Below the pieces are notes generated by a model, which saw only the letters and a program-made list of their open reading frames with translations, made no database searches and had not been told where the DNA came from. A stretch of DNA of 64,000 bases. It comes from Sphingobium arseniciresistens (GTDB taxonomy: Bacteria > Pseudomonadota > Alphaproteobacteria > Sphingomonadales > Sphingomonadaceae). The DNA lies in contig JARFNK010000016.1 of NCBI GenBank assembly GCA_029167225.1, forward strand, positions 62,001 to 126,000, given 5' to 3'. The translations under genes and the position numbers were made by a program. Below are positions 43,950 through 62,590 of this stretch, in pieces (the stretch's first letter is position 1; each line of letters starts with the position of its first letter).

Positions 43950-44903
43950 TCAGGTGTCACGGGCAAAACGTTCGCGCGCCGTGATTGGCCGTAGGTTTGC
44001 TCGACCGCGGCCGCGATAGACGTTTTGCTCAAGCCAGTCGACCTCACTCGGTAGGCCAACCTCTTCGGCCTCGCGCCACCAGAAGCGGCGCCGCGCGTCC
44101 CAGCGATATCCGGCGCCCTTGAGCAGATCCTTGGCGTCGAAGGGTGCACCGACGGCCTCTATGCGGATGCTCGCCGCCTCGGCCCGCTCGAGCAGGTGCG
44201 ACAGGATCGTGCGATCGCTGGCCACTTTCAGGCCCAGCAGAGCGGTTAGTGCGGCGACGTCATTGCCAGCTCGATGGCCCTGGAAGAACCAACCTCCCTG
44301 CAGCAGCAGGTGGCCGAGGGATCGGCCATCGAATCCGAGCGCGAGCCAATCGAGCTGCGAAAGGCTGCAGGCCCAAGGGAGTCGCCGCAGCGGCGGAAAC
44401 CGAAGATCGAGAAAGGGCCGGTCAAAGGCTGCATTATGCGCGATCACGAAATCAGCCTCGCCGATTAGTTTGACGATCGCCGCATCGTCGAAGCGCTGTC
44501 CAGCGAGGTCTGCGTCGGTCAGACCGGTGAGCGCCGTCAGTCGTTCGGGCATGGCCCGACCGGGATCCTCTAGCCAGGACCGAACGCGTTCGATCGCGAC
44601 GATCTGTCCGGCCCGGTCGAACGTAAAGCGCTGGATGGCAACTTCGACGGTCCGGTCGACGTCGGGGTCGAGGCCAGTAGTCTCCGTGTCGACGACAGCT
44701 GCGATCCGTTGCCCAGGCGCGGGGATGGGCAGCTCTGCGTCGCCGATGTCAACGTTAAGCGCGCGCAGCACGCGATAGCCTGGCATAGCTTCGAGGCGCC
44801 GCGCGAGCTCGTCGCTCTCCATGTGGAGCGCGGGCGCCCTTGCTGCCGGATCAGCACCCGCCCTGCCGGCGAGCCGGTTAAGAAGATGCTGCACAATGCT
44901 CAT
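43950..44903 (-). CDS. DEDDh 3'-5' exonuclease (DNA polymerase III epsilon-like)
   Basis: The 317 residues contain the full DEDDh set: Asp72 and Glu74 (VVDTETTGLD), Asp161 (HNAAFDRPF), His210 and Asp215 (GHRAGND). The middle domain is like DnaQ or the proofreading epsilon subunit; a C-terminal extension of 90 residues (GAPFDAKDLLKGAGYRWDAR, RRFWWREA) resembles a small domain seen fused to such nucleases. It is the last gene of the ten-gene minus-strand unit and overlaps the nitrilase gene stop by 4 bases (ATGA). It could trim DNA products of the reverse transcriptase or degrade invading DNA. Confidence 0.88.
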   Translation of the reverse strand: MSIVQHLLNRLAGRAGADPAARAPALHMESDELARRLEAMPGYRVLRALNVDIGDAELPIPAPGQRIAAVVDTETTGLDPDVDRTVEVAIQRFTFDRAGQIVAIERVRSWLEDPGRAMPERLTALTGLTDADLAGQRFDDAAIVKLIGEADFVIAHNAAFDRPFLDLRFPPLRRLPWACSLSQLDWLALGFDGRSLGHLLLQGGWFFQGHRAGNDVAALTALLGLKVASDRTILSHLLERAEAASIRIEAVGAPFDAKDLLKGAGYRWDARRRFWWREAEEVGLPSEVDWLEQNVYRGRGRANLRPITARERFARDT

Positions 44904-45811
44904 CCGTCGCTCTTTTCCGCTTTCGAAATAGGGACAACTGGCAATCGATAACCTGGCGGCAGACTCTTGAAAGCCTTCTCACCGTCGCTCATCGGATCGC
45001 TGTGGCTCTGATGCAGATCGAGCGGTGCCACTGGTAGTTCGATGATCTGGCCCGTCGCGAGCCCCGCGCCGGCATGCTGATAGATCGTGCGTCGCTCGGG
45101 CTGGCGATAGGGCGATACCGCCAGCGAGCCTCCAAAATGCCCGCAATTGCAGATGACGACATTGCAGAAGACCATCCGCGCCACGGCCTCCGCCACATGC
45201 CGAAACGAAGTTGCATCCTTGTTGAGTGCGAGAATAAAAAGATGTTGAACCCGGCCTCGATACATGGCGATCCGTTCCAGATCGAGGAAGTCGTAGCACA
45301 CCATGACGCCAAAGGTCCCAATGGCGCCACCGTCGAGAAGCCAAACCGAGGGATCTCGCTTGAACGTGTAAGCTGCGGCAATAAGCTTCTTGTCCTCGTC
45401 CGGCGCAGCGTAGGTCTTGCCGATCCGGCGCGTCATGGTTTTCGAACCCATCGCTTTGCCGCGCCATCGTTGTGGCACGATCAGGAGAGCATCATTATGC
45501 ACCTCTCCAGGGGCATCACCGGCGCGATAATCGAGCCCTGCAATCACGACCGACTGCATTTTTGTCGCCATTGCCCGCAATTTGCCTTCGAAGCCGGTCG
45601 GCACTGCAAGCTCAGGCAGCACGATGATGTCGGGTGGCGGGCTTTCCTGGTGGAACGCGGCAAAATAGCCCCTGATCTCGGTAATCGCTCGCTCCTCCTC
45701 ACAAGGCGACATTTTTGGACCGTTTACCCAGGCCGCAATCGGGTCAAGGGAGGTTTGGATAATGCCGAGCTTCAGCGTTTCGGTGAGATGGGAGCTGTGG
45801 GGCTCGCTCAT
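44900..45811 (-). CDS. Nitrilase-superfamily (carbon-nitrogen hydrolase) protein coupled to the RT
   Basis: The 303-residue protein shows the Glu-Lys-Cys catalytic triad of the superfamily: Glu67 (IIVLPELAVP), Lys132 (RIGKTYAAPDED) and Cys172 (GVMVCYDFLDLE). Its start overlaps the reverse transcriptase stop (ATGA) and its stop overlaps the exonuclease start. In DRT type 1 (UG1) defence systems a nitrilase-like domain is fused to the C-terminus of the RT; here it is a separate, translationally coupled protein. Substrate and role are unknown. No signal peptide is present, so it is cytoplasmic. Confidence 0.85.
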   Translation of the reverse strand: MSEPHSSHLTETLKLGIIQTSLDPIAAWVNGPKMSPCEEERAITEIRGYFAAFHQESPPPDIIVLPELAVPTGFEGKLRAMATKMQSVVIAGLDYRAGDAPGEVHNDALLIVPQRWRGKAMGSKTMTRRIGKTYAAPDEDKKLIAAAYTFKRDPSVWLLDGGAIGTFGVMVCYDFLDLERIAMYRGRVQHLFILALNKDATSFRHVAEAVARMVFCNVVICNCGHFGGSLAVSPYRQPERRTIYQHAGAGLATGQIIELPVAPLDLHQSHSDPMSDGEKAFKSLPPGYRLPVVPISKAEKSDG

Positions 45812-48800
45812 TGCGGTTGATCCCCCTCGGCGGCGTCGCCGTCGGCAAACGCGCCAATCTGCTGCAGACGAACTGGGATCAGCTGCCGCGGCTCATGCTC
45901 TAGCACGGTCATCTGGCTGCGTTCGAGCTCGCCCTGTGCCTTGACAAGGAGATAACGTAGCGCGTCGGGCGATCGGATCGGTCGATCAAACTCGCTGTCA
46001 TCGGCGGCACGGCGGAGGAGGTTGCCGAACAGGGACGGGAAAAGTGGCAGGAAGGACGTCTCAACGCTTCTTGGCATCAGACAGGACTGCAGGATCGCAA
46101 GCGTGAACGAAGAAATCGGCAGGCGTTCAAGGTCCCACGTAACCGTGTCGACAAGACTGCGTTCCTGTCCGCGGATATTCCAGGCCGCTGGTAGCGCGAA
46201 GCTCAGCCGCAAGATGCCCCAGAGGAGCTGACCGAAAGGACGCAGTCGCCGCTCCCAGCGACGCTCGGTCCGCTGGACTAGCTCGCTGTAGCGGAAATCG
46301 TCGATGCCCGGCTTAATCATCGTTGCGCTCTCTTCGCGCGCCAAGCGGCACCAGCCCTCCCAGGTGATCCGGTCGTTGATGCGCCTGTCCGGTTCCACGT
46401 TGCGCCAGGTCATTGGGATGCGAACATTCTCTGGGTGAAGACGATCGAGGAAATCCGCATCTGGGCCACCGAATTTGAAGAGCGGCTCAAGGATTTGACG
46501 GGTGATCTCGAGCGCGGTCCATTCAGAACGGCGCGGATCGCTTGGCGAGCGTGTCCGTGCATACGCAACCCAGTCGCGGAGGGACATCGTGTCAGGTGCT
46601 AGAGCGATCCTCGATGCTACCGCCGCAACGACCGAACTATCGGCCGATAGCACGGCGAATTGGTCAGGCGCCGCTCGCGCCGCATCGAGCAACCAGCCTG
46701 CGTCATCGGCCGCAAGCAGGGTCGGCTCAAGCCGTAGCCGCGTCCATGCCTCGTTCGGGAGTTCGGCGGGATAACGGCGCAGGTTGATCCAGTCATATGA
46801 ATCAGCAGTATCGTGTTCCGTGACCATGTCGGGCCAAAATGCCGGCGGGTCGTAGCGATGGGTGCCGGTTGTCGCGAAGAACCAGTGCGACCAGATGCCG
46901 ACTGAGACCTGCGTCGCGGTGCGCAAGTTGGCCAGCGTTGGAACGGCCTCCAGCGTTTCGGCTGCCCGTTGTCGCATGCTGGTTGCGAGCGCAGGGTCTG
47001 TTCGCCCGACCTCCAGGGCGCCGAGCAGCATTGAGGCAACGAAAGCGCTCTTCGCATCGAGCTGAAACCGTTGGAGCGGCTCTGCACGTGACAATGGCAC
47101 GAATGCGTCGATATCTGCCCGCAAGGTGTGATTGATAAACGATCGCGCGGCCTCCCTCTCGCGATGGAGCAAATCGACGCGATTCACTGCGGCGCAGGCG
47201 GTCAGAAGGTGGCGGGCAAGGTGCTGCACGCCAAGTGCGCCAAGGTAGCATTTGAGCAGACGCGTCTCGCCCTCACCATGGAGGCGCATCCATTCGCCCA
47301 GACGTGAGAAACCGTCATGACCCGTGGCGCGGCAATAGTCGATCATTCGGATAAACAGTCGCGCCTTGTCCGGATGCGCGTGAAAAGCCTCGAACAGCAG
47401 CCCGAAATGGCGCTTGAGCAAGGCCTCCCAAATGCTTTGCTCGTCGCGCTTGCGAAGTTCAATTTTCTCATAAAGCCGTTGGATTTCGGCTTCGGCGCTT
47501 TCGTCGAGAGATTTGCCCGCAGTCTCGATCTTACGCTTCTTCTCCAGGGTCAAGGCCAGATGGCGATGCGCCTCGAGCAGCTCATCGTTGGGACGAAATA
47601 GTGCTGGCGTAAGCGTCGCGATGCGTGCCGCCGCGAAGGCCATTCGTGTGTCTCCCCGGATCTCCTGCTCGGGAATGTTCGCGAGCAGAAGCCATTCGAG
47701 CTGTTCCAGTCGCTGCCCGCGCCCGGCGTCGGTCAATAGGTCGAAATCGGTTGCCGCCAGCATCGACACCTGGGCGAGTGTCCGCGTCATCAGCTCGGTC
47801 GGTTTGCGGCCGTTTACCTCAGCCGCCCTCGCGACTTTCTCGATCAACTCGTCGTGGGTCTCGCTTGCCTCACCGGATCCCTCGCATAGTTCGGGATGGA
47901 GTATGGATTTCAGTTCGGACGGCACATATTTGTCGGGTTCGATCCGGGCACCGATGTTGAACGCCTCAAGCAGCCGTGCATATTCTTCGATCCACGCGAC
48001 TAGCGCCTTGAAATCATAGGCGAGGACTTCATGATCATCGACGAAGCGAAAATGAGCGATGGTGCGCCTTTCCCGCAATATCTCGTCGACCTTGAGATCG
48101 AGCGGCAGCATCGCGACATTGGCGAGGAAGCCGCCGGCGAAGAGGCCAGTGGGAATGCCCTCAAACAATCCCGGCGGCACCTGCGGCTCGACTGTTGTTT
48201 TCATCTCGTCGGTTAACCCGCTGTCATCGACCTCGAACCGCAGCATGTCGTTGAGCAGGGTCGCAAGCGGGGCCTCATCCCGGAAGCCGTCGATATACTC
48301 CTCGAACCCGCGTACGATTGCTTCCAAACGGATGGTTGGATAGAATTTCATCAGGTCGAATGACGCCGCATAGAGTTTTTCACCCTGCGACGGCGGCCGG
48401 ATCCAGAATGGTAATTCTAGATAGGCGAGCCCTTCGGTTTGGTCGAGCGCGCGACGCTCGCCCTGGTCGAGTTCGTCCTCATCGATCAGCTCGCTCACCA
48501 TCCGGCGGGCGGTTAGCGAGATATGGCGGCGATAAAGTGGCCAGCTATGCTTGAAATGGCGGTAGAGATGGCCGGCCGAATGGCGATAAGGGCCGATGTT
48601 CAGCTGTGATCCCTTGCCCTCAGGCGATTCCTCCTCATACCAAGCGGCCCGATACAGGCGGTTACCATAACTCCAGGCCGGCATCTTTCGGTCGAGTTCG
48701 GGTCCAAGCACGGTGGCCATCGCTGTCCATGCGACTTGGTCCCGCACCGCGATCTCGAAATATTGCCTGAGCCTGGGCTTGCCCTCTTTGTCGGGCTTCT

Positions 48801-49011
48801 TCGTTTGCGGCACGAGCCGGATCGGCCGGGCGACCCAGTGCCCAGCGGCGAAGTCAGCACGTATACCCTCAAGTTCCGCTTCGAGATTAAGCTCGAAGGC
48901 TGCGAGAGCCGCCTGATCATACAGGCTGTCGGCCGACCGATAGCAGCGCCGGACCTTACGCCACGCCCACAGCAGCGTCTCGGGCAACAGCAGGATGTCA
49001 TGCAGGCTCAT
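45808..49011 (-). CDS. Large reverse transcriptase (DRT/UG-type) with long helical C-terminal region
   Basis: The N-terminal 400 residues form an RT: fingers motif ARPIRLVPQTKK and RLRQYFEIAVRDQVAW, motif A with Asp219 (ASFDLMKFYPT), motif B (EGIPTGLFAGGFLANV, 284-299) and motif C FRFVDDHEVL with catalytic Asp325-Asp326. FVDD replaces the usual YADD. Residues 400-1067 have no catalytic motif I recognise and look mainly helical, resembling the repeat-like C-terminal region of UG-class defence RTs. No maturase, intron or retron features are visible next to it. It is coupled by 4-base overlaps to the primase-like gene before it and the nitrilase gene after it. Confidence 0.88.
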   Translation of the reverse strand: MSLHDILLLPETLLWAWRKVRRCYRSADSLYDQAALAAFELNLEAELEGIRADFAAGHWVARPIRLVPQTKKPDKEGKPRLRQYFEIAVRDQVAWTAMATVLGPELDRKMPAWSYGNRLYRAAWYEEESPEGKGSQLNIGPYRHSAGHLYRHFKHSWPLYRRHISLTARRMVSELIDEDELDQGERRALDQTEGLAYLELPFWIRPPSQGEKLYAASFDLMKFYPTIRLEAIVRGFEEYIDGFRDEAPLATLLNDMLRFEVDDSGLTDEMKTTVEPQVPPGLFEGIPTGLFAGGFLANVAMLPLDLKVDEILRERRTIAHFRFVDDHEVLAYDFKALVAWIEEYARLLEAFNIGARIEPDKYVPSELKSILHPELCEGSGEASETHDELIEKVARAAEVNGRKPTELMTRTLAQVSMLAATDFDLLTDAGRGQRLEQLEWLLLANIPEQEIRGDTRMAFAAARIATLTPALFRPNDELLEAHRHLALTLEKKRKIETAGKSLDESAEAEIQRLYEKIELRKRDEQSIWEALLKRHFGLLFEAFHAHPDKARLFIRMIDYCRATGHDGFSRLGEWMRLHGEGETRLLKCYLGALGVQHLARHLLTACAAVNRVDLLHREREAARSFINHTLRADIDAFVPLSRAEPLQRFQLDAKSAFVASMLLGALEVGRTDPALATSMRQRAAETLEAVPTLANLRTATQVSVGIWSHWFFATTGTHRYDPPAFWPDMVTEHDTADSYDWINLRRYPAELPNEAWTRLRLEPTLLAADDAGWLLDAARAAPDQFAVLSADSSVVAAVASRIALAPDTMSLRDWVAYARTRSPSDPRRSEWTALEITRQILEPLFKFGGPDADFLDRLHPENVRIPMTWRNVEPDRRINDRITWEGWCRLAREESATMIKPGIDDFRYSELVQRTERRWERRLRPFGQLLWGILRLSFALPAAWNIRGQERSLVDTVTWDLERLPISSFTLAILQSCLMPRSVETSFLPLFPSLFGNLLRRAADDSEFDRPIRSPDALRYLLVKAQGELERSQMTVLEHEPRQLIPVRLQQIGAFADGDAAEGDQPQ

Positions 49012-50048
49012 CGGTCGATCCCCTCCCGTGCCCGCAAAAAGTCGTTTAAGTCATTGATGCCCTCCGGCATCGACGTAGTCGACGCCGTGATCCCATGATC
49101 GCCCAGCAGCCGCACCAATCGTTGGGCGAAGCCCGCGCCCGCCGCGTCGGCGTCGCCGAGTACCGCGACATTGCGACCGCGCAGGCGGGCAATCGTAGGT
49201 GCATCGATCCGGGCGCTGGCCCCGACGAAACCGATCGCCGGGATGCCAAGTTGATGCGCGGAGAGAACGTCGGTCACACCCTCGCAGATTGTAATTGTCG
49301 GGGCAGAACCCGCCAGTGCTTCGAGATTGAAAGGCGGCGGTGGCAGGTGCGCTGGGCAGAGCCATCGGCTGTCGCGCTCGCCGTCGGGGCGCCGCGCCTG
49401 TAGGAATACAATCTCGCCGTCGATGACGAAAGGGAAGAGCAGGTAGCCCGAGCGAAAGGCCAGATAGGGACCGTAGCGACCCTTGATCATAACCCCGCAG
49501 CGTTCGAGACGCGTTTCCCCGAAGCGTTCGCGCGCCGCACGAAGCAACGCCTTGCCCTCGCCAAGCTGGCCAACGCCGAAATGTGCGAGCGTCGCGGGCA
49601 CGAAACCGCGCGAGTCGAGGTAAGCCCGTCCGGACGGTGCGAGCGGCGATTGCGCGAGAATCCAAGTGAAGATCTCGCTATCGGAGCCGACCTCCCCGGT
49701 GGAGCCGGCAGGGGCAGTGACCGAGGGAAGAGGATCACGCACCGTCCGCACGCCGCGACGAGGCGATTTTCCAGACCGCGTGTCATCGATTCCGAAGCGA
49801 CCGCCGAGCCATCGGCAAGCGCCGAGAAAGTCGGTGCCTTCCATGATCCGTACAAGATCAATCGCGTCGCCGCCGCGATTGCACGCGAAGCAATTGAAAC
49901 GGTTGGTCCGCGACCGAACCGAAAAGGACGGGTGCTCATCGTCATGACCGGGCAAGCGGCATCGCGCCATGCCACGAGACAGCTGAAAGCCGAGCGCAGT
50001 CGCTACCGAAGCGATCGGGATCGCCCTGAGCTTCTCAGCGTCAAACAT
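49008..50048 (-). CDS. CHC2 zinc-finger/Toprim primase-like protein
   Basis: I favour the ATG at 50048 (MFDAEKLRAIPIASVATALG), where family similarity begins; a TTG at 50159 overlapping the helicase stop is possible. Cys30-x4-His35 and Cys53-x2-Cys56 (NCFACNRGGDAIDLV) form the CHC2 zinc finger, and the Toprim domain has ICEGVTDVLSA and the acidic VLGDADAAG. It is DnaG-like but shorter (346 residues) and lacks an obvious helicase-binding domain. The stop overlaps the RT start by 4 bases (ATGA), suggesting it lays primers for that enzyme. Confidence 0.87.
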   Translation of the reverse strand: MFDAEKLRAIPIASVATALGFQLSRGMARCRLPGHDDEHPSFSVRSRTNRFNCFACNRGGDAIDLVRIMEGTDFLGACRWLGGRFGIDDTRSGKSPRRGVRTVRDPLPSVTAPAGSTGEVGSDSEIFTWILAQSPLAPSGRAYLDSRGFVPATLAHFGVGQLGEGKALLRAARERFGETRLERCGVMIKGRYGPYLAFRSGYLLFPFVIDGEIVFLQARRPDGERDSRWLCPAHLPPPPFNLEALAGSAPTITICEGVTDVLSAHQLGIPAIGFVGASARIDAPTIARLRGRNVAVLGDADAAGAGFAQRLVRLLGDHGITASTTSMPEGINDLNDFLRAREGIDR

Positions 50049-50155
50049 CTTTCCGCCAGCGCGACGGTCCGTCGGCCGGCGCCCCCCTCCTTGCAGCGCC
50101 ATCCGTGTTCTATGCCCGATGGCCGCGCATACGCCAAGGCGACGCTGTGCATTAC

Positions 50156-53100
50156 TCAAGGAACGCTAAACAGTTTCCCGCTTGTAACAAATACGACCAT
50201 TCCTTTTGGAATACCAGTCACCTCGAGGTAGCGCAGAACCTGGGAACGGTAGTGATCGAGAGCCTCCCCGCTAGGGTTCACGTCGCTCTTCCAATCGATC
50301 ACCAGTTCGGGCTTGCCATCCTCACCGATGCAGAGCGCATCAACGATCCCGAAGGTGGCAAGTTCGCAGCAATCATCCTCGATCGAGCCGTAGACCGGCA
50401 GCTCGGGCACAAGCCTGGGCCGAATTGCCGCGATCTCGGGCAGTGCCAGCGTCCTCCCCACAGTTACCGCTATCTCGTCCGCCGATAGTCCAAGCGCGGG
50501 ATCGAGTCCGGGTTCGCGGCCGAGATCCCGGATCAAACCAGCGGCCCGTGCGACGAGTGCCCCGGCATCGTCCGCGGTCTCGCCAGTCAGCACTTCCTCG
50601 ATCAGCTTGTGGATGACGAGACCCCGCTCCCGGCCGCCCTGGACGGCGATGGCATCGATTGCGGGGGAATCGTCATCGGCCCCAAGTACGATCTGCGGGA
50701 CGGATACGACATCCAGTGGACCCGCAGGATCCTCATCCCGACTCGGTGCAATCCAGCGCAGCTTGTGGCTAGCCGCGACTACCGCCACCGCCTCGGCCAC
50801 AAACACCTCTCGCGTCTGTCCATTCTCCGGATCTCCGTCGATCGTCTCGAACCCAGGTGGATGCTGATCGATCTGGATGAGCGGCAGTCCATCAAGATCG
50901 AAGTCCATCAAAGCGTTCCAGCTGCTTTTCGCTGGAGCCACATCGAGCTTCGGCAGCACGAGCAGCTCGCGGGCCCGGGTTGCCGCGACATACCAAAGCC
51001 GCAGCCGCTCGCGCTCGCGCTCCGCGACCTCGGCTGCTTTTGCTTCCTCGTAACCCGCAGGCTCAACCCCGAAGATTGGCAGGAAGATGCGCCTCGTTTC
51101 GCTGTCGATGATCGGATCGCGCACGTCGTTGCCTGACGTCATCGTGTTGATCGGCACGACGATCGGCCATTCGAGGCCCTTGGAGGCGTGCATCGTGACC
51201 AGCGATACCGCTTCCTCCTGAGCGTCAGGACGCCCCTCGGCCGACCGGACCTTGCCCTCCCATGCCGCCGTCATCACGTCCGCGAACGCCCTCAATCCTC
51301 GTACGCCATAAGGCTGCGCCAGGCTCAAGAAGAGATCGACATTGGCCAGCGGCCGCTCTGCCTGCCCGCCATGGCGCTGGAGCAGGATGGCGCGCACGCG
51401 CAGCACGTCAACCGCCTCGGCCAGCAATTGGTGCGGCGTGGTTCCGTTGATCCCCCGACGGAGTGCCTGAAGCTTCTCGACGATGTCGCGGGCGTGGCGG
51501 TTTTCGATCGCATCTGGGTCGAGGTGGATATTGAGCTTTGGGCGTGCTGCGGGACGCTCCGGATCACGGGGCTGGTTCCAGACGAGATCGAGCAGTTGCT
51601 CCTCGGTCAAGCCAACCAGCGGCCCGCGCAGGAGTGCGATCAGTGCGAGGCTGTCGCGGCTATCGGCCAGCACTCGCGTGATCGCGACGAGATCCTGCAC
51701 CTCCTGGCGGCGGTAGAAGCCTTTGCCGGCTTGGGTCGCCACAGGCACGCCGCGCTTCTCGAGCGCCTCTTCGTAACGCCACAGTTCGGTCCCGCCGGGC
51801 GCCAGCAACGCGATGTCGCCAGGTCGGCAGGGCCGTCGCTCGTCGGTCTTGCGGTCGACGATGATCTGGCTGCCGATCAGCCGGCTGCACATTTCCGCGA
51901 CGGCCTCTGCTTCGCAGTCGCGCTGCGCGGCCGCTTTGGCCTTGCCGTCCTCGCCCGCGCATTGAACCGGGAGCGCTGCGACGCACAACCCCTCGCCGTG
52001 ATCAGGGTGAAAGCTGTCGAGTGCGGTGAATCCCGGCTGCCCTTTCTCGACCGTCATGTGCGGCGCGAAGCGTTCGTTCACATATGCGAGGATCGCCGCG
52101 CACGAGCGGAAGTTAGTTGAGATTGACAGCAGGTCTTGGGGATTGAGTGCCCGGATCGCCTCGCGCGCCCGGATATAAGCGGCGACGTCGGCCCCGCGAA
52201 AGCGGTAGATCGCCTGCTTGGGATCGCCGACGAGGAACAGCGCACCCGGCCTAATCCGGTAGGCCGCCCAATCCTGCGGATCGGCACCGGCGATCGGGTC
52301 GCCGCACAACCGCCAGAATATTTCCGTCTGAAGGGGATCTGTGTCCTGGAACTCGTCTACCAGCACATGGGTGTATCGTTTTGCCAATGCTTCGCGCACC
52401 ACCGGATGATCGCGCAACAAGTCGCGCGCCGCGAAGATCAGGTCGTCGAAATCGAGCAGCGCCGCCGAACGCTTATAGTCGCGGAAGTTGTCGGCGATGG
52501 GTTGGATAGCCGCGATCAGGTCTGCCAGCACGCGTCCTGCCACGGCTTGTAGAAGCACCGTCCAACCCCGACAGCAGGCGAGGTGGAGCACTTCGGCTTG
52601 GGCGTTGAGCAGCCCACCATCCGCCTTGGACAGGCCTGCCGTCTTCGCTGCCGCCTCCCATTTGCCCTTCTTTTTGTAGGCGCTGAACGCACCCTTAGCC
52701 GTGCAGAGTGACGGGTGCGGGGTCGAAGCAAGCAGGCGAACAAGCGCCGGGGGCGCCTCGTCCTCAACCGCGAATGCGATCGCCTCGCTCATCTCCACGA
52801 AGGCCGAGGCGCCCGCTGTACTCTCCGCCTCCTGAGCAGCCGTGCCGATGACGAAGGCGCGATAGGCTTCAGCCGCCGCGCCGAAGGTCGTCACCAACGG
52901 CGAGATCCCGCCCACATCAGGTGCCACCAGCACCCGATTGTCGCGCAGCGCTCCTGCCGCAGTTGCGATCAGTTCGCTCGCTTTCGTTGGGTTCAGGAAC
53001 ACGAGCTCGGCGACGAGACTCTCCTCGCCCGAGTTGAGCGTGACGCGAAGCCAGCGATCGACGGCATCGCTGAACGTCAGGTCCGCTTGCGCGGGGTCCA

Positions 53101-53530: not shown

Positions 53531-56178
53531 TAGATCGCTTCCCAGACGAGCGCGGCATCGCCCAGTGCCTCACGTGCCGGTTCCAGTTTTCGGGGGCAGT
53601 AGCCGTTGCCGGCATTCGCCGGTAGCGCAAAGCTCAGATCGTCATAGTCACCGCCATTGTCGGGCCCGATCACGGCGCGTCCGGCGAGCAGGCTTGCGCG
53701 CGCCGCCCGGAGATGTCCGGCCAGATCCTCCATCACAGCCGCCGGTTCCTCAAGATGGCGGGCTTCCGTGTCACGAGGGTAGAGCAACGCTGCATCAATC
53801 TCGATGCCGTCGCCAAGCAACGCCTTCACCGCATAGGCATAGAGGCAGCGCTGCAGCTCTTTCCCGCCCTGAAGGACGACCTGGTCCTTCGGCAGCTTGC
53901 CGCCCTTATAATCGAACACACGTGCCTTGGCCGCATCCCCCGAGAGGTCGAGGCGATCGATATAGCCGGATATCTGGAATCCGGTGTCGACGATCTCCAC
54001 CGGCTTGGTCGTGTCCCAAGGCAATGCACCGTCGGACTTCGCTTTTTGCCCGCCAAACGGTACCTCGGTGTAGCATTTTTGATCTGATAGAGCCGGTTCA
54101 GGATGCTGAAGCGCGTTCAGCGCCGTCTGTTTGGCGTCCTCCACCGTGCGGCGCCACACGACGAGCGGCGGCACCGCTAGTTCGGCTTGCCACTGCCTGG
54201 CGACGGTTGTTGCCGCCTGCTCAATCGCGGCGACAACCTGATTCGGACGTGCGCCGGCAAGGCTCCCCTGCCCTTCCAGCAGCCGCACCGCATGATCGAG
54301 CGTCTCGTGGAGCAGGATGCCGCTTTGTCGCGCGTCCAACACGAGCGCCTCCTCCGCGCTTTCCGGTGCGCTGATCCCGAGCGCATAGCTCCAGGTGAAC
54401 CCGAGCGGATTGCGCAGCAGCTTGGCGAGCGAGCTCGCCGACTGCACCCGTTGCAGTGCGGCAAGCAGCGCGGGATGATTAGCCCGGACCATTCCGTCAT
54501 GGGCAGTGACAGCGGCTCGCTGCCAGTTGTTCCAGCACTCGGCTGCAGAGCGTGCCTGATCGCTGGCGCCGAAATCCGCGGGACGCGCCACCAGGCGATC
54601 GGTTTCGCTCATCGCATGCGTTGGCCGCCGATTACGGCGGATATAGCGGGCGTCTGGCTGCCCGCGCAGCAACGGGCTCTTGCCGAGCAGCCGTCCTTCG
54701 CTGTCGCGACGAGCTCGCGAGAGCACCACCTGCTCAGTCGTAGTGCAGAGGATCGTCTCGAAATCGCGACGGTCGGCAGCGGTAACTGGCAGCGGGTCGA
54801 GCTCTCCGACCGGGACGATATGATCGGACAGCAACCGATCCTCGGAAATCCGCCTTGGCCATCCGGTCGAGGTCAGGCCGAGCAGACGCACGAACTTCCG
54901 AGGCGATGCCGCAAGCGCCGACGCCGGCATCCACGCCACCGACACGCACACCTCGCAGGCATCCTCCTGGCGTAGGCCATCGATGGTGACGTCGATCGCG
55001 GCCGCGCTGCCGGCGAGCAGGGCCTTCTTCCAGATACGTAGCGCGCCGCCTGACAGGAAGGTGCGCCCCATCTCGTCCGCATCGTTCGTCCCACCGCTGA
55101 GCTTTTCGACGATTGCCCGGAGGTCGGAGCTATGTTCGATACTATCGGGCCAGCGATCGGCTGTCAGGCCGCTCAGGAGCCGCTCCCAGGCGTCGGCTGA
55201 GGACAAAGGCGCATCGGGCGGCAGCACGCGCTGCCAACCTTCGGGAAGCATCTGGAACGGCCCCGAGCCAGCGAGCAGCGTCGCGAGCCGCCGCAGGCGC
55301 AACTGCGATAGCCCGCGCACCAGGATGTCAGCCAGCGCTGCGGCCGTCTGCCCCTCCCGGGTGGTGACCACCCGGATACTGTGAACGAAATGCAGGTCGA
55401 TATTGGCGTCGGCCCTGAGCGCCATGAACTCATCGTCATAGGCGGCCGGCGCAGCCGCCGCGATCGCGATTTCGGATGGCTTGGCTGTGCCGCTGGTGAT
55501 CAACTCGCGCGCCCAGCGCAGCGCCTCGATTGCCTCATGATAGCCGCTGGCAGCGCTTACTGACTTAACGTGCGGCGTGGCTGGCTCCGATCGCTCGATC
55601 TCGACGTTCGAACCTTCCAGCCAGGCGGGGACTGAGCGCGGCCCTGCGTTCCAGCGCACCGGTAACGTCCCGGCAAGCTCGATCAGCAACTCGCGCCAGC
55701 ACGGCGAAAGCTCGCTGATTCCGACGATCTCGATCTCGCCGAAGAGCACGGGAGCAAGGTGGAGACGAGCAAGCGCTTGCGAAGCGAGATCGACCGGCCG
55801 CAGCATCGACGAAGGTAGGCGTTCCAATAGGGCCTGCTCGAGCGCGGCCATCGCTGCTAGCCGGGGATGATCACCGGCTCTCGCAGAAAGGTTGATGCCG
55901 GTGCGCCAGACCTTATGCAGGGTGTCGGCCGTGGCGCCCACCATGCCGGGTAGAAGCTTGATGGCATCCAGCTCACCGAGATCGGTATCGGGCAGCGTCT
56001 TCTGGATCCCATCGCGTAGCGCCTCCGCGTCGATAGGCCGCGCGAAGCCGCCGGCAAGGCGGGCTGCCAGCTGCTCGAAGGACATGACTTGGACGCCATG
56101 GCGTCGGTTGCGGGCAGCAGCTAGGCGGATCTCTCGGGACGTCAGCCGCCCATGTGCTATGTACGTCTGCCTCTTCAT
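53530..56178 (-). CDS. AddB-like PD-(D/E)XK nuclease family protein
   Basis: I start at the ATG at 56178 (MKRQTYIAHGRLTSREIRLA); a start 4 codons earlier is possible. The 882-residue protein has an inactivated-helicase-like N-terminal part and a C-terminal nuclease with ILLHETLDHAV, GYIDRLDLSGDA and the active-site strand RVFDYKGGKLP. It matches AddB-type partners in size, order and fold, but the four-Cys iron-sulfur cluster of AddB is not evident. It lies 12 bases after the helicase gene and overlaps the AddA-like gene, so a heterodimer is expected. Confidence 0.8.
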   Translation of the reverse strand: MKRQTYIAHGRLTSREIRLAAARNRRHGVQVMSFEQLAARLAGGFARPIDAEALRDGIQKTLPDTDLGELDAIKLLPGMVGATADTLHKVWRTGINLSARAGDHPRLAAMAALEQALLERLPSSMLRPVDLASQALARLHLAPVLFGEIEIVGISELSPCWRELLIELAGTLPVRWNAGPRSVPAWLEGSNVEIERSEPATPHVKSVSAASGYHEAIEALRWARELITSGTAKPSEIAIAAAAPAAYDDEFMALRADANIDLHFVHSIRVVTTREGQTAAALADILVRGLSQLRLRRLATLLAGSGPFQMLPEGWQRVLPPDAPLSSADAWERLLSGLTADRWPDSIEHSSDLRAIVEKLSGGTNDADEMGRTFLSGGALRIWKKALLAGSAAAIDVTIDGLRQEDACEVCVSVAWMPASALAASPRKFVRLLGLTSTGWPRRISEDRLLSDHIVPVGELDPLPVTAADRRDFETILCTTTEQVVLSRARRDSEGRLLGKSPLLRGQPDARYIRRNRRPTHAMSETDRLVARPADFGASDQARSAAECWNNWQRAAVTAHDGMVRANHPALLAALQRVQSASSLAKLLRNPLGFTWSYALGISAPESAEEALVLDARQSGILLHETLDHAVRLLEGQGSLAGARPNQVVAAIEQAATTVARQWQAELAVPPLVVWRRTVEDAKQTALNALQHPEPALSDQKCYTEVPFGGQKAKSDGALPWDTTKPVEIVDTGFQISGYIDRLDLSGDAAKARVFDYKGGKLPKDQVVLQGGKELQRCLYAYAVKALLGDGIEIDAALLYPRDTEARHLEEPAAVMEDLAGHLRAARASLLAGRAVIGPDNGGDYDDLSFALPANAGNGYCPRKLEPAREALGDAALVWEAI

Positions 56179-56190
56179 GCCCCGCCCCAC

Positions 56191-59124
56191 TTAGAATGCG
56201 AACTTCGCTTGACCCTTGTTCTCGACAGGGCGCAACTTCGCGTAGGCGAAGAGGTCGGCCAACGAACCGCCCTTGTCGCGCCACCCATAGAATGTATCCT
56301 CGCCCAAAAGGACATAGTTCCACTCTGCGCCGCTGCGGTGTTCTGCGGGAAGGCCATTAATCCGGTTGCACCAAGCCACCGCAGCTTTCCGCTTGCGGAG
56401 CACGTTTGGACTCGTCAGCTGGCCCTGTGCCTTGGTTTCGATAAGGTAGATACCATTGCCCGTACGCACGAGAAAATCGGGAGAATAGAATGCGGGGAGA
56501 CCGTCTTCCTTGATATAGCGTAGCCGCGCAAAGGTATGCTTTTGCTCGTTGATCTTGCAGTGGGCATCGACGCTGGCATCCCGCTCACACGTTTCCATGA
56601 AGGCGTGTTCTAGGCCGCCATTCCGCGACGGGTATGGCAGGCGAAAGTAGATTGCCTTCTCGACGGCGAGGGATGACCCCTCTCGCATCGCCAACTTCGG
56701 CACTTCGGAGAGGCGCCGGTGCGCCACCTCTGCCTCGGCAACGATCACACTTTCTTCGGCCTCAAGTATTGCCCGAGCCCATACCTTAATGAGGTGCTCC
56801 GTCACCGGGTCGATGAGCAGGACTCTCCAATTTTCATCGGCGAGCGGATCAATGACCTGACGGAAAAGGTGGTTGCGAACAAAGGTGTCGATTCCTTCGG
56901 CCATCTCGGCCCGATTGATCTGGATGTAGGGGAACTTGTTCGCGTTGGCGAAAGCCTTGGGGCTGCTCGTAGTATCTGTCAGCGTGACGGCCTCTGCAAT
57001 GCGCCGCGTAACTCGGGCGAGATAATCGTTGTAGCCCGTTGCCGTCATCACTCCGCCGTGGACGCGATAATCGCCGAAGCGAGTTTTCGCCTGCACATCT
57101 TCGGAGTGGAATTTTTCGCCTTGGCCGAGCTGGCTCTTCAGCTGATCGAGCGTGAAATTGCCAAACGCCTGTAGTTTTGCGGGTTCGATATGAGTGTCGT
57201 CCAGCTCCTCCACTTCTTCCCGGAGGATGAATGGAAGAGCGAAATCATACTCCTCGAAGCCGGGCCGCAGCCCGACCGAAATAAGATCGCCGGTCGAGCT
57301 GGTATTCTGATCGTCCTCGTCGTCCTCTTCGGTAGCGAGGCCTTCTTGAATCAGCTCGTCATAGAACCCCTGGAAAGCCGGGTGCTCAACGATCGACAGA
57401 ATGTCGATCATGTTGGAAGGGGTCTTGCCGGTGCGAATGAGTTGACGATTCTCTCGTTTGATGTCGTCAAATTCGTTACCGCGCCACATGAGGCGCAGCC
57501 CGCGCCCAATGGTCTGCTCCAGCAGGATACCGGAGCCGGACGCCCGCAGCGGTACGATCACGCAGATGTTGTTCACATCGAAGCCCTCGCGCAGCATTAG
57601 GACGCTGACGATGACCCGGGGCGACCGATGCCGATCGACGTCGAACAGGCGTTCGCGCAAAATCTTCCACTCGTCCGGTTTCAGCTCGCCCTTACGGTTG
57701 GAATCGACGCGAAGCAGCTCATCGTCAGCAAGGCCTTCGAGCGTCATAAACTCGGCGACGAGGGGGGTGACAGTCGTATCCTCGCAGACTACCAGCATTT
57801 TCGGGTGCTTGTCAGGATCGAGGCCGGCGAAATCCGCTTCGAGTTTGCGGAGTTTGGTCAGGCCGGCGCGAAGCATGATCCGCTGCCCTTCAGACAGCAT
57901 CGGGTTGCCGTTTTCGTCTCGATCGGCGTTGAAGTCGAGGTCTTCATGGCTGAGCGCCCCGATTTCCGAGCGCTTGTCGAGCACGAGGGATTTCACGAGA
58001 CCTGCGCGCATCGCGGTTTTCAAGTCGAAATCGACGACAATGTGCGGAAAATAGGCCTTTCGAGAATTCCTTCCAGTCCCAACCTCGTTGTAGGGCGTCG
58101 CTGAAAAATCAACCTGAACAAAGCGAGCGCCCTTCGGCTGTGAAATCAAGTTAAGGCTCTTCTGCCACTCGACCTCCGTAACTTCCCCCTCCCGCTTGAA
58201 ATCGTGGATGTGGTGCGCCTCGTCGTTAAACACCATTAATGCCGGTAGGTCTTTTAAGTATGAGAGAATACCGCCACGCTCAAACCGACGGTTGAGGACG
58301 TTCAAATCATTGCCCTGGCTCATGCCAGGCATCAGCGGAAAAATGCTCTGCACCACGGCCTTGGGATCGACAGTATCTCCGGGGGCGACGATCTCATCGT
58401 CTTCGAGTGGCTCGCCTTCTTCTGAAAGGACGTGCCAGTTAGAAATGGCGATGATCCCGCCGGCTGTCGTTTTGCGGCCGATCTCTTCTTTAGGGCAGAC
58501 TGCACCTTGGACGAAGCGAAACACCTCATCCCGATAGGCGTCAGGAATGAACAGTTCTTGGAATATCGCTAGATCGGAAATCGAGAAGTCGCGCTTGCCG
58601 TGGCGCTCTTTGCCCATGAATGCATCCAATAGGCGATCATAGACGATGAGGCCGGGGACCACGATAAGGAAATTTTTTGTGTAGCGCTCGCTTTCCGGCG
58701 CGCGGTTTGCGTTTAACACTTGCCAGACCAAGAGGGCTTGCAGCACCCACGTTTTGCCGGTGCCGGTCGCCATTTTCAGGCAGTATTTGGGATAGCCATT
58801 TTTCGGCGCGCGAATGATTTCAGAATCGCGCGTGCTTGCCAACAAAACGTCGGGGGCCGCCCTCTGGTAGAGGTCCTGCAACGTCGCAATGCCCAGTACC
58901 TCGTGGGCATAAATTACATTGAGTAGTGCCTGCCGCTGCCCAGGATGGAAGTTGAACTGCCTGGAGTCCTGAAACTCCGCTTGAAACCACCATTTCAGTA
59001 GCTCGGCCGTCGTCTCCGAAACCAGGTCAAGGATCGGCGCCGTTCCCGCTTCTAGGCCGGCTGAGAGCTCTTCAACCTTGGCGGTTAAACCGCTGGCAAG
59101 AGTAAGTTCGTTGATGCCCGCCAT
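56191..59124 (-). CDS. Type III restriction-like DEAD/DEAH helicase-nuclease (Res)
   Basis: The 977-residue protein has Walker A MATGTGKT (about 119-126), the DEAH box NDEAHH (about 302), SAT motif FSATPYNEV, and later VSVLMLREGFDVNNICVIVP and the QTIGRGLRLMW arginine motif. A PD-(D/E)XK domain lies at the C-terminus (SPDFLVRTGNGIYLIETKAQ). The layout matches the Res subunit of type III restriction enzymes. ATG (TGATG overlap with mod) or a GTG one codon before (GTGA) may start it. It probably translocates or loops on DNA lacking the cognate methylation. Confidence 0.87.
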   Translation of the reverse strand: MAGINELTLASGLTAKVEELSAGLEAGTAPILDLVSETTAELLKWWFQAEFQDSRQFNFHPGQRQALLNVIYAHEVLGIATLQDLYQRAAPDVLLASTRDSEIIRAPKNGYPKYCLKMATGTGKTWVLQALLVWQVLNANRAPESERYTKNFLIVVPGLIVYDRLLDAFMGKERHGKRDFSISDLAIFQELFIPDAYRDEVFRFVQGAVCPKEEIGRKTTAGGIIAISNWHVLSEEGEPLEDDEIVAPGDTVDPKAVVQSIFPLMPGMSQGNDLNVLNRRFERGGILSYLKDLPALMVFNDEAHHIHDFKREGEVTEVEWQKSLNLISQPKGARFVQVDFSATPYNEVGTGRNSRKAYFPHIVVDFDLKTAMRAGLVKSLVLDKRSEIGALSHEDLDFNADRDENGNPMLSEGQRIMLRAGLTKLRKLEADFAGLDPDKHPKMLVVCEDTTVTPLVAEFMTLEGLADDELLRVDSNRKGELKPDEWKILRERLFDVDRHRSPRVIVSVLMLREGFDVNNICVIVPLRASGSGILLEQTIGRGLRLMWRGNEFDDIKRENRQLIRTGKTPSNMIDILSIVEHPAFQGFYDELIQEGLATEEDDEDDQNTSSTGDLISVGLRPGFEEYDFALPFILREEVEELDDTHIEPAKLQAFGNFTLDQLKSQLGQGEKFHSEDVQAKTRFGDYRVHGGVMTATGYNDYLARVTRRIAEAVTLTDTTSSPKAFANANKFPYIQINRAEMAEGIDTFVRNHLFRQVIDPLADENWRVLLIDPVTEHLIKVWARAILEAEESVIVAEAEVAHRRLSEVPKLAMREGSSLAVEKAIYFRLPYPSRNGGLEHAFMETCERDASVDAHCKINEQKHTFARLRYIKEDGLPAFYSPDFLVRTGNGIYLIETKAQGQLTSPNVLRKRKAAVAWCNRINGLPAEHRSGAEWNYVLLGEDTFYGWRDKGGSLADLFAYAKLRPVENKGQAKFAF

Positions 59125-61178
59125 CACGCCACCTCGACCATGGCTTCGGCTTCGAATCCGAAGACATCCACGACCCGAACGCAGATCAAACGCTTGCCAT
59201 CCTTCCTTGGAAGCCCCGTCAGCCTTGCGGTCGAGACGACTCGGAGGGGATCGTCATCATTCTCAGTGTTTCCTCGATAGTCTTGCCACACAGAACGGAA
59301 CACTTCGCCGTCATAGTCCGGATCGACGCTCCAATATTCAATGAGTGCCAACGGATCCGAGTTGATGACGTTTTGAAGTTGGCGTCTGTTTGCATCGTCC
59401 AAGTTGAGCGCATCTGGCGAAAGCAGAACATAGTTTGCTATCGCCACGTCCAATGCCTCCCCTTTTCCTTCGGCCCTGCGAAGCACTTCGCCCAGCTTGA
59501 GATACTGAAGCGACGAAAAGCGTACCTCGTCAGCCTTCAACTTGTGGCCCTTTTTCTTGAGACGATCGAGAAGGTCGGGCGGAATAACCAAAACCTCAAG
59601 CTTATCTGCCTGACCGAGCGCCTCAATATCATGTCCAATTGTCGGAGAAAAGTTCCAGCCGAGGACGATGACCTTATCCCATCCTCCCATAAGATTGTCG
59701 CGAATCTCGATGGCCCGCCGAAGCGTAGTGAGGCCCGTCATCTTATTTGGGCTGTCGGCCAACACCAAAGTTTTGCTGCTTCCGGCTATCCGACCCATGT
59801 TCTTGTTTGGATTCTCATCGACCGGTAACGGGAGTGCTCCAAAGAGTCCCAGCACGATCTCGGCAAGATCGCCGATACGGAACCGGCTTCCCATAGTCGA
59901 GCGGAGCTGCTCGACTTGATAGTCGCCAATGTGCTGGTAAAGAAAAGGGCGGGCGTCCTGATCGATCAGGCGCTTTCGCGCGATCATACAGGCGGGCTTA
60001 CCGAGGTCGGACACTATCCAGCGCCGGCCAAGCCGTTCGGCCACCGCGGCCGTAGTCCCCGAGCCTGAGAAAAGGTCCAAGACGAGTGAGTCAGGATTAC
60101 TGGATGCGCTTATTATTCGCTCAAGAAGCTTCTCAGGTTTTTGGGTGCCGTAGCCCACTTTCTCGGACGACCATCCCCGTATCATGCTGATGTCATCCCA
60201 CCAAGTACCAACCTGGACACCTTTGGAATCGTCTAGATATTTCTTTTGCATCGGGACGGTGCCGGGATTCGTTTGGATCACTAGCCCAGCGTCTATTAGG
60301 CCTTGCATCCTCGCCCGCGAATAACGCCAAGCGCGAGTAACGCCCATTACTTCGTAGACGGGATTGCCCTTCGCCGCTCCGCCGGGGCCCAACATATTCT
60401 CCATCTTGTATCGGCGGCCGTCGGGGTCTTTGTACTTGTAAAACCCGTCGACGTAGTTGTCAGACAGAGGCAGATATATGGGATTCCAAATCCTGCTCTG
60501 TCCTTTGGCGTAAAATAGGATGACGTCGTGGACGCGACTATAATGTTTGCTTCCCTGTGCCGCATCGCCCTTTGCATCGGAGCGTTTCCAGCAAATCTCA
60601 TTAACGAAGCTATCGGGTCCAAATATGCTGTCGGCCACGACCCTCACATAGTCTGCAACGTGCCAATCTAGGTGAATGTAAATAGAGCCACTGTCAGAAA
60701 GAAGCTCACGCATTAGCACCAGGCGCGGCACGATATTTTCGATGTATGATGACGTGCCATTGGACCAAGTGTCGGCGTAGGCATACTGCTCAATCACGGT
60801 GGGGCGTTGCTCAATATCACCAGTAGGCAAAGATATCTTGGTCTTGTAGTCAGCTTTGCTGTCAAACGGTGGATCGATGTAGATGAGATCGACCTTCCCT
60901 CTTATCGACCCGGAATTATCGTCACCCGCCAGAAGGGCAGCCATCGCAAGTAGATTATCACCGTAGATCAGCCTATTGGCGCTCGTATGAATTTGCTGAT
61001 AATCGGCCCTTTCGCTACTGCGAAGTAGATCCTGCCAGTTGCTATCTCTTGAGGGAATCACCAGTTCACGCGTCTGCAGCCCGAGGCGGTAATTGCTCTC
61101 AGCGCGCTCCATGACACGCTCCGCTTCGCGCTTTCCCTCCGTCACGATCGGCGGAAGCTGCTCTAACAGACTCTTCAT
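59124..61178 (-). CDS. Type III-like DNA adenine methyltransferase (Mod)
   Basis: This 684-residue beta-class methyltransferase has the catalytic motif IV first (YIDPPFDSKADY, DPPF at 102-105) and the AdoMet-binding motif I later (VLDLFSGSGTT, 367-376), with GYGTQKPEKLLERII before it. DPPF/DPPY points to N6-adenine or N4-cytosine methylation; type III Mod enzymes make N6-methyladenine. A C-terminal 250 residues of unknown fold follow. It overlaps the small ORF before it by 4 bases and the Res gene by 1. Confidence 0.9.
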   Translation of the reverse strand: MKSLLEQLPPIVTEGKREAERVMERAESNYRLGLQTRELVIPSRDSNWQDLLRSSERADYQQIHTSANRLIYGDNLLAMAALLAGDDNSGSIRGKVDLIYIDPPFDSKADYKTKISLPTGDIEQRPTVIEQYAYADTWSNGTSSYIENIVPRLVLMRELLSDSGSIYIHLDWHVADYVRVVADSIFGPDSFVNEICWKRSDAKGDAAQGSKHYSRVHDVILFYAKGQSRIWNPIYLPLSDNYVDGFYKYKDPDGRRYKMENMLGPGGAAKGNPVYEVMGVTRAWRYSRARMQGLIDAGLVIQTNPGTVPMQKKYLDDSKGVQVGTWWDDISMIRGWSSEKVGYGTQKPEKLLERIISASSNPDSLVLDLFSGSGTTAAVAERLGRRWIVSDLGKPACMIARKRLIDQDARPFLYQHIGDYQVEQLRSTMGSRFRIGDLAEIVLGLFGALPLPVDENPNKNMGRIAGSSKTLVLADSPNKMTGLTTLRRAIEIRDNLMGGWDKVIVLGWNFSPTIGHDIEALGQADKLEVLVIPPDLLDRLKKKGHKLKADEVRFSSLQYLKLGEVLRRAEGKGEALDVAIANYVLLSPDALNLDDANRRQLQNVINSDPLALIEYWSVDPDYDGEVFRSVWQDYRGNTENDDDPLRVVSTARLTGLPRKDGKRLICVRVVDVFGFEAEAMVEVA

Positions 61179-61309
61179 TCAGAGATTCCTTTTTCCGTGC
61201 GGGTGGCACGGTCACGCGCTTTAGATATTGAAAGGTCACGGTTGTAATGACGCGGTCGCCACAGCAGCGTTTGTGGGAAAGCGCTGCCTAGCGGCTCATG
61301 ATCGGTCAT
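61175..61309 (-). CDS. 44-residue ORF coupled to mod
   Basis: The ATG at 61309 lies within the last codons of the HTH gene (14-base overlap) and the stop overlaps the mod start (ATGA). The product (MTDHEPLGSAFPQTLLWRPR, then HYNRDLSISKARDRATRTEK) is basic and shows no domain. Tight coupling on both sides is the only evidence that it is expressed. It could be a regulatory leader or a small DNA-binding accessory protein. Confidence 0.5.
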   Translation of the reverse strand: MTDHEPLGSAFPQTLLWRPRHYNRDLSISKARDRATRTEKGISE

Positions 61310-61649
61310 GAGAGTCCCCTCGCGCGGCGTTAAGTCGATGAAGAACGGCTTTCTCAAGCCCTCCGAGCTCGAGTTTTTTACGGTTGACGATCGCCAGCAG
61401 CCTTGGTCCGAGATCTTCGGGACACGTCGTTGCTGATGAAAGCCAGTAGCGGACCGTACGGTCCGAGACGCTCAGATCTGCAGCAAGGGGCGCCTGCCAT
61501 CGTTCGCCATATAGCGCTTCTCCGACAAAGCGGAGCAGACCGAGTTTGCCTTCGTCCCCCATTTCCGCGTTTCTAGGAAATTGGGGAGCGATGATCAAGG
61601 AAAAGTGGTCGCTAACCTGCCCGGCTGCTAGCTTTGGGTCAGCAACCAA
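61296..61649 (-). CDS. Small helix-turn-helix protein at the head of the ten-gene unit
   Basis: The conserved-looking part is GKLGLLRFVGEALYGERWQA, then PLAADLSVSDRTVRYWLSSA, a compact helix-turn-helix with a recognition helix in SDRTVRYWL. The open frame begins with TTG at 61649; an ATG at 61562 (MGDEGKLGL) is also possible, giving 88 residues. It is the first gene of the co-oriented unit and is likely its regulator. The downstream small ORF overlaps its end. Confidence 0.6.
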   Translation of the reverse strand: MVADPKLAAGQVSDHFSLIIAPQFPRNAEMGDEGKLGLLRFVGEALYGERWQAPLAADLSVSDRTVRYWLSSATTCPEDLGPRLLAIVNRKKLELGGLEKAVLHRLNAARGDSHDRS

Positions 61650-61751
61650 TGAGGTGGCTCGGCGACGAGCAGCCCGAGTGGAGCGGCCGTTATCTTACTG
61701 CCAGGCTACGCGATATTGCCTAGGGTTCGCTACCGGAATGATCGTCAGATG

Positions 61752-62559: not shown

Positions 62560-62590
62560 ATTTCAACCGCTCCCGAGTCGCACCAATGCT

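Follow-up and report, generated by a model that had tools for sequence, protein, structure and literature searches.

A probable composite defense island in Sphingobium arseniciresistens: a type III-like restriction-modification module, a roaming AddAB-like pair and a UG6 reverse transcriptase quartet

We analyzed a 64,000-nucleotide stretch of Sphingobium arseniciresistens DNA (hereafter, the window), in which ten co-directional open reading frames (ORFs), all on the minus strand, occupy positions 43950-61649. These ORFs very probably make up a composite defense island of three modules. As predicted from their sequences, the modules are a Mod-Res restriction-modification (R-M) pair, an AddB-AddA nuclease-helicase pair and a translationally coupled quartet encoding a primase, a reverse transcriptase (RT), a nitrilase and an exonuclease, which is assigned to the UG6 defense-associated reverse transcriptases (DRTs). 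We rejected a single ten-gene system, since each module occurs elsewhere without the others and, among the loci examined, the full set was found, besides the window, solely in Sphingomonas sp. SRS2. The features are, in gene order:

61296-61649, minus strand: small ORF of 117 aa (TTG start), helix-turn-helix-like by eye
61175-61357, minus strand: small ORF of 60 aa (44 aa from an ATG at ~61309), with a 4-nt overlap with the Mod start
59124-61178, minus strand: Mod, type III-like DNA methyltransferase (DPPF, FSGSG)
56191-59127, minus strand: Res, type III-like restriction helicase-nuclease (GTGKT, DEAH, PD...ETK)
53530-56190, minus strand: AddB-like PD-(D/E)XK nuclease (PF12705; motif D...DYK)
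50156-53530, minus strand: AddA-like UvrD helicase with a C-terminal nuclease motif, DWK (PF00580)
50049-50155, minus strand: gap of 107 nt from the AddA stop to the likely primase ATG, the module boundary (N-terminal alignment of four primases)
49008-50048 (from the ATG) or to 50159 (from a TTG), minus strand: DnaG-like primase (CHC2 zinc ribbon, Toprim)
45808-49011, minus strand: UG6 reverse transcriptase with an FVDD active site (PADLOC RT_UG6)
44900-45811, minus strand: stand-alone DRT-type nitrilase (PADLOC RTasNitrilase)
43950-44903, minus strand: DEDDh 3'-5' exonuclease of the PRK09182 subfamily (NF006615)

Most junctions are overlaps of 4 nt, including RT/nitrilase; AddB and AddA overlap by 1 nt, and Res abuts AddB, or lies 12 nt from it if the AddB ATG start is taken. 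The eight large ORFs have family matches and the expected catalytic motifs in each case and are therefore not chance reading frames. The tight packing, the junctions and the motifs had all been described in the original prediction and hold up, with the gap before the primase at 107 nt.

Occurrence of the three modules apart from one another

Across six further UG6 loci, tblastn found no AddA, AddB or Res orthologue in the stretches examined (23 kb of flanks for L027-L029 and 17-28 kb for the others, with L073 ending 6.3 kb upstream of the primase). UG6 stands beside AddB-AddA in none of 18 other loci of that pair (stretches of 3.9-26.7 kb), and 17 of the 18 are without a Mod-Res of the window type. 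Mod-Res itself was found in seven other loci, in the examined stretches of which UG6 is missing from all seven and AddB-AddA from six. The original prediction that the whole set forms one system is not supported by these counts: the halves occur independently, an outcome that it had itself named as pointing to two adjacent systems.

The R-M half has the make-up of a type III enzyme, with a DPPY/F Mod beside a Res that combines a helicase with a PD-(D/E)XK nuclease. Type III R-M systems recognize sites in head-to-head orientation and cleave 25-27 bp away. Mod matches PF01555 (N6_N4_Mtase) at 132 bits and PADLOC MTase_III at 232 bits; Res matches PF04851 (ResIII) at 42 bits. While the two are adjacent and carry the motifs expected of type III R-M, Res departs from that class in scoring far under the BPTD_3080 cut-off (191 against 800) and in reaching merely 89 bits with PADLOC REase_III. 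In L047, Mod is separated from Res by transposon genes. We found Mod in 16 plasmid records at E<=1e-100, and the one accession that these have in common with the AddB records listed (60 of 64) is the S. insulae plasmid NZ_CP048419.1. On that plasmid, identity to the window is 83-86% for each of Mod, Res, AddB and AddA and the order is kept, with McrBC-like genes inserted between Mod-Res and AddB-AddA and with no UG6. Mod-Res is a mobile type III-like R-M and a separable module.

The AddB-like protein matches PF12705 (PDDEXK_1) at 66 bits and has relatives in 64 plasmid records; PADLOC returned nothing for it except a weak Cas4 match. Its partner matches PF00580 (UvrD-helicase) at 170 bits. Both resemble AddAB/RecBCD in having a UvrD helicase and two PD-(D/E)XK-type nuclease motifs, but they sit among defense genes on plasmids and score far under the curated AddA/AddB-like cut-offs that NCBIfam sets for the housekeeping equivalogs: AddA reaches 280 bits with TIGR02784 (addA_alphas), whose cut-off is 861, and the TIGR03623 score is 29 against 300. 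Our literature search found no description of an AddAB-like defense pair in the parts of the sources that it covered.

The 18 other loci of this pair comprise 10 of the 64 plasmid records and 8 stretches from seven of the eight other matching genomes of a class search (9/372 genomes match, the source genome included; the stop-containing fragment in G725 was excluded). AddB is followed by AddA in all 18, two of which are cut by the record end, and AddB is split in L053 and L056. We named the neighbors from PADLOC or record annotation, leaving L039, L049, L050, L054 and L058 unclassified. The Shango proteins SngA, SngB and SngC (PADLOC) are encoded beside the pair in L046; L055 and L064 are annotated with the same order, and L052 has a Shango-type order as judged from ORFs. 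Azaca ZacA and ZacB adjoin it in L051, and Azaca-similar ORFs or annotations do so in L044 and L048, and in L056 on the opposite strand. Further neighbors are a CBASS (cyclic-oligonucleotide-based anti-phage signaling) cyclase with E1-E2 and JAB proteins (L059), McrBC-like genes under their cut-offs (L042), a multiubiquitin-ThiF-DUF6527 set (L044), bacteriophage exclusion (BREX) genes on the opposite strand (L057), a distinct Mod-Res upstream at a distance of 412 nt (FD7, L043) and a truncated type VI retron RT (RT_VI-like) directly upstream of AddB (L053). Besides Azaca, L051 encodes an MkoA-like protein and a full Drt1a RT-nitrilase (1274 bits) on the same strand as AddB-AddA and ~300 nt upstream of it (Drt1a at 11682-15377, the pair at 5260-11387). 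This locus is a second instance of a nitrilase DRT beside an AddB-AddA cassette. Altogether, AddB-AddA is a roaming, promiscuous nuclease-helicase pair that stands beside at least seven kinds of defense gene sets (Shango, Azaca, CBASS, DRT1, McrBC-like, type III-like R-M and UG6), which makes it the more general lead.

Several observations weigh against a composite of separable modules. The ten genes are closely packed, and a consensus scan of the 107-nt gap between AddA and the primase found neither a promoter-like nor a terminator-like site, the other sign of two adjacent systems that had been proposed. The gap itself follows from the primase ATG start, which is favored by the N-termini of two of three aligned homologs (L028, L029) and of L073 at the position of the window's ATG. 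No conserved element upstream of the primase is shared with the window; L027 and L074 align well there, and L028, L029 and L073 weakly. The GC content of the quartet (58-65%) overlaps that of AddA/AddB (64-65%). A same-strand type III-like R-M lies upstream of UG6 in two of seven loci, the window, where AddB-AddA comes between, and Sphingopyxis italica (L029), where Mod-Res lies 135 nt upstream of the primase; this may be more than chance. The L029 pair is a different one (MTase_III 597 bits, REase_III 543 bits) and includes the sole Mod-like match near UG6 in the six further loci, at 31%. Finally, the island is 99.9-100% identical over ~42 kb to DNA of SRS2, which is placed in another genus, so the modules have moved together at least once, barring contamination in the source assembly.

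In a single integrated system, modification would mark self, unmarked DNA would be processed by Res and AddAB, and the primase and RT would use it to write DNA. The shared direction of the ORFs and their mostly overlapping junctions, the near-identical copy in another genus and the second R-M directly upstream of UG6 in L029 speak for it, but the full set is in no locus examined apart from the SRS2 copy, the modules are found separately and 107 nt part the halves at the conserved primase start, and we regard this reading as very improbable. Rather unlikely, too, is a pair of units in which Mod-Res-AddB-AddA combines restriction with resection, Res cleaving and AddB-AddA degrading the ends, next to a separate UG6. 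The four orthologs at 83-86% identity suggest a shared history of R-M and AddB-AddA in the S. insulae lineage, where the McrBC-like genes come between the pairs, and FD7 places another Mod-Res before AddB-AddA; against this stand the loci in which either pair lacks the other within the stretch examined (six of seven for Mod-Res, 17 of 18 for AddB-AddA) and a GC difference of ~8-12 points between Mod/Res (54-57%) and AddB-AddA. It is quite possible, if somewhat doubtful, that AddB-AddA is a self-standing defense or a back-up recombination nuclease that accumulates in islands. Its highly varied neighbors and a divergent upstream gene in L048-L050, L056 and L057 would fit this, whereas in L046, L052 and L064 the pair begins 2 nt after a Shango-type helicase gene, which suggests a coupled partner there. 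A composite island of three modules remains our preferred reading.

The UG6 quartet and its exchangeable exonuclease

The RT matches PADLOC RT_UG6 at 909.8 bits over model positions 2-921 of 925; the best non-UG6 PADLOC match is Drt1a at 59 bits. It has no Pfam match at E<=0.01, and an RT alignment gave no PDB match at E<=0.1. D325 and D326 are invariant in 4/4 aligned sequences. The primase matches PADLOC RTasDnaG-like at 300 bits, Zn_ribbon_DnaG and Toprim_2 in Pfam, and DnaG in the PDB. For the nitrilase, PADLOC RTasNitrilase gives 346 bits and Pfam 21.5 bits against a cut-off of 23.2; up to E=1, the PDB offers a single match, the DRT1 structure 9yfd (E=1e-14). Its residues E67, K132 and C172, which we take to be catalytic, are invariant in 4/4 aligned sequences. 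The exonuclease scores 281 bits with NF006615/PRK09182 (cut-off 207) and matches RNase_T in Pfam, with no match to PADLOC's SbcB/ExoI-like model RTasSbcB at E<=0.01.

An RT_UG6-type RT with a DnaG-like primase and an RT-associated nitrilase beside it is the composition of a UG6 DRT, and PADLOC files all three window proteins under DRT. The nitrilase is homologous to the DRT1 domain, as in class 3 DRTs, which pair an RT with a nitrilase or phosphohydrolase, and the RT weakly matches Drt1a. As originally predicted, the parts are defense-type genes and the RT-nitrilase half belongs to a DRT1-like theme. DRT1 (UG1; 9yfd) has RT and nitrilase fused in one polypeptide; in the window, by contrast, they are two genes, and a primase and an exonuclease are added. 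PADLOC's UG6 DRT comprises RT_UG6, RTasDnaG-like, RTasNitrilase and RTasSbcB. The window agrees with it in the first three models and, as in L069, in gene order, and differs in its fourth gene, a PRK09182-type DEDDh exonuclease in place of an SbcB-like one. The layout of the quartet is already catalogued, since all four L069 proteins match the four PADLOC DRT models (RT_UG6 1373 bits, RTasSbcB 767 bits). The claim that no such system had been described may thus hold for the ten genes together, but not for the RT quartet. Classified from its sequences, the quartet belongs to the UG6 DRT systems, as a variant of a kind already catalogued. The names of PADLOC's RT-associated models reportedly stem from the UG/Abi classification of Mestre et al. 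In the portions covered, a classification paper describes UG6 with a nitrilase neighbor in one genome (PMC8934634); the literature searched yielded no functional study of UG6.

The six further UG6 loci lie in different genomes with different flanks: Sphingobium Leaf26 (L027, genome G783), Paracoccus denitrificans DSM 413 (L028), Sphingopyxis italica (L029), L069 (G954), L073 (G1007) and L074 (G1101), the SRS2 copy not being counted. Five of their RTs are related, at 59-61% identity to the window RT (L027-L029, L073, L074), and the L069 RT is 37% identical. Window included, the order primase-RT-nitrilase-exonuclease holds in 7/7 loci, as do a 4-nt primase/RT overlap and an overlap of RT and nitrilase; nitrilase and exonuclease overlap or lie 2 nt apart in six and are 60 nt apart in L069. 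This suggests a minimal UG6 unit of four genes and ~6.1 kb. In Leaf26, the first residues of the RT lie in another frame than the rest (L023 14282-14647 versus 11449-14637), through sequencing error or decay.

The fourth gene encodes a DEDDh exonuclease in all seven loci, drawn from two subfamilies: the window type in six and, in L069, an SbcB/ExoI-like protein with an ExoI C-terminal domain. The window, L027, L073 and L074 exceed the PRK09182 cut-off; the L028 and L029 exonucleases, compared by alignment and not scored with that model, are 57-59% identical to the window's. Exonucleases over this cut-off occurred in 10/30 genomes, in five UG6 carriers at the UG6 locus (G1073, the SRS2 genome, included) and in five genomes without UG6, and are accessory in the genome group searched. 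They may serve other defense systems too. In one genome without a UG6 match, such a gene follows a SIR2/HerA-like ORF pair, named by eye (L079 5436-9665). None of six UG6-carrying genomes (source, G783, G954, G1007, G1073, G1101) has a host ExoI over the curated cut-off, the G954 match being the UG6 gene itself.

UG6 RTs are rare. In genome samples that overlap one another, a high score was found in 1/398 phylum genomes (the source genome; 13 others reached <=29.3 bits), 1/385 class genomes (the source again), 2/94 genus genomes (source and G783) and 5/298 family genomes (source and G1073 included), and in 1/2 and 1/3 genomes of two further small samples. There was no match in 14 genomes of another family or in 369 of a second class, searches in which no positive control matched. 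None of 72,556 plasmids matched the RT at E<=1e-5, and the L069 RT was found neither in plasmids nor in phages. Viral contigs gave no relatives for the RT, the RT alignment, the L069 RT or the nitrilase, and three partial, distant matches for the primase. A contig scan confirmed 5/129 stretches (four loci, one being the SRS2 copy); it used two short patterns, so UG6 is under-sampled. In L074 (5835-19901), the quartet lies between conjugation-like ORFs (coupling protein, TrbB/TrbE-like, by eye), and UG6 may therefore travel as integrative-element cargo.

Genomic setting of the island

The source assembly is 6.6 Mb with 6% contamination. On the left, the DNA shared with SRS2 (L026; same family) starts exactly where a Tn3-like element has its left inverted repeat (window 40522); on the right, it extends beyond the window and reaches C29:144989 or farther. 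It is interrupted by 6.3 kb that SRS2 alone has and by a minor difference around C29:140000. Alternatively, the shared contig may be contamination in the source assembly. The Tn3-like element (40522-43714) carries a tnpA-like ORF flanked by matching inverted repeats, and the left edge of the shared DNA coincides with its left end; an IS3-like match to its left ends at ~40523. We rejected the island as cargo of this Tn3, the repeats at 40522 and 43714 enclosing the tnpA-like ORF alone. Megablast of 40000-64000 against plasmids returned 37 records. Coverage of 80% is reached by none of them, and the top three (24-25%) correspond to the AddB-AddA part.

The 117-aa ORF, a possible candidate regulator of the R-M module, had no Pfam, PADLOC or NCBIfam match. 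Both small ORFs are unproven as genuine genes; tblastn matched them solely in the near-identical SRS2 copy and in none of 28 other loci. Over 44000-63900, a consensus scan showed no clear excess over shuffled sequence in promoter-like (6 versus a shuffle mean of 4.9, sd 2.3) or terminator-like sites (11 versus 16.1). Rfam gave no matches at the gathering threshold for the window and L025.

The 6.3-kb SRS2 stretch, missing at window 62742, holds imuA-imuB-dnaE2-like and SRAP-like ORFs (names by eye). An SRAP-like ORF lies at window 62762-63415, and an annotated SRAP-type gene directly follows AddA in S. insulae. About 2 kb upstream of the cluster, a retron RT (PADLOC RT_VI, 256 bits) lies on the minus strand at window 63674-64000 and continues into L003 1267-2220, where it adjoins an HTH_XRE-like ORF (by eye; L003 2177-2518).

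A candidate mechanism and its meaning

Characterized DRTs offer a model for the quartet. DRT1 is reported to make protein-primed untemplated DNA by which its nitrilase is both activated and held back; the system needs an active RT as well as an active nitrilase, and DNA adducts of ~17-30 nt, natively or after ExoI treatment, build a dormant filament (PMC13275509). Active DRT9 gave no transformants when the recipient lacked sbcB (ExoI), a gene that is reported as essential with UG17 (PMC12483538).

By analogy, single-stranded DNA would be made by the UG6 RT, with the DnaG-like primase assisting or priming it, and this DNA would keep the separate DRT1-type nitrilase under control. As long as the cell is healthy, the co-encoded 3'-5' exonuclease would trim or remove the DNA. 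Interference of a phage with DNA ends, exonucleases or dNTPs would shift the balance; the nitrilase, as a toxin, would act on some cellular substrate, and the cell would stop. For the R-M and AddB-AddA modules, the target would be the phage DNA itself, unmodified DNA being cleaved and its ends then degraded. A primase that starts or supports synthesis and a nitrilase that is the toxin are thus presumed roles, and DNA synthesis by primase and RT with trimming by the exonuclease, as originally proposed, is consistent with the conserved quartet. The idea that the exonuclease acts in cis as a brake on the DNA made by the RT, like host ExoI for DRT9, is a tentative one that we hold with some doubt. 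More speculatively, AddB-AddA might serve as a second, RecBCD-like brake where it adjoins UG6 or DRT1, a thought prompted by the DRT3 parallel described below and by the two adjacencies, in the window and L051.

Other points count against the brake and the model behind it. The DRT1 priming residue S402 is reported not to be conserved in other class 3 RTs (PMC13275509), so the priming chemistry of UG6 may differ; by sequence alignment, the post-RT stretch of the UG6 RT has invariant T405, T409, T411 and S416. With DRT3, loss of RecBCD was lethal, an effect that loss of SbcB did not match (PMC13174585); its brake is RecBCD, and control of the ExoI type is therefore not general. Some genomes that lack UG6 have PRK09182-type exonucleases too, and the source genome has an ExoI-like gene elsewhere (187 bits, under the cut-off). 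The exonuclease might instead be an effector or a processor of templates or primers, with primase and exonuclease shaping phage DNA for the RT. A primase gene constant in 7/7 loci suggests templated or RNA-primed synthesis, and the accounts of DRT1 and DRT9, in the portions covered, describe protein priming and name no primase; yet a nuclease is the brake in two characterized DRTs, ExoI for DRT9 (PMC12483538) and RecBCD for DRT3 (PMC13174585). We consider this reading unlikely, if credible.

With the quartet layout itself already catalogued, the new angles are the replacement of the exonuclease in UG6 and the roaming AddAB-like cassette, whose promiscuity is the most general by-product of this analysis. 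In the in-cis brake reading, the natural exonuclease swap predicts a built-in antitoxin. A toxin separate from the RT makes the DRT1 question, control of a nitrilase by untemplated DNA, testable gene by gene. In a wider and improbable, though far-reaching, reading, DNA-writing defense carries its own brakes, an in-cis exonuclease in UG6 (two DEDDh subfamilies in one slot) and a roaming AddAB-like guard module, both beside one DRT here. If this were true, UG6 would encode in cis the exonuclease that DRT9 borrows from its host, and the AddAB-like pair would be a RecBCD equivalent that plugs into Shango, CBASS, Azaca, DRT1, UG6 and R-M and serves them all in processing or as a guard.

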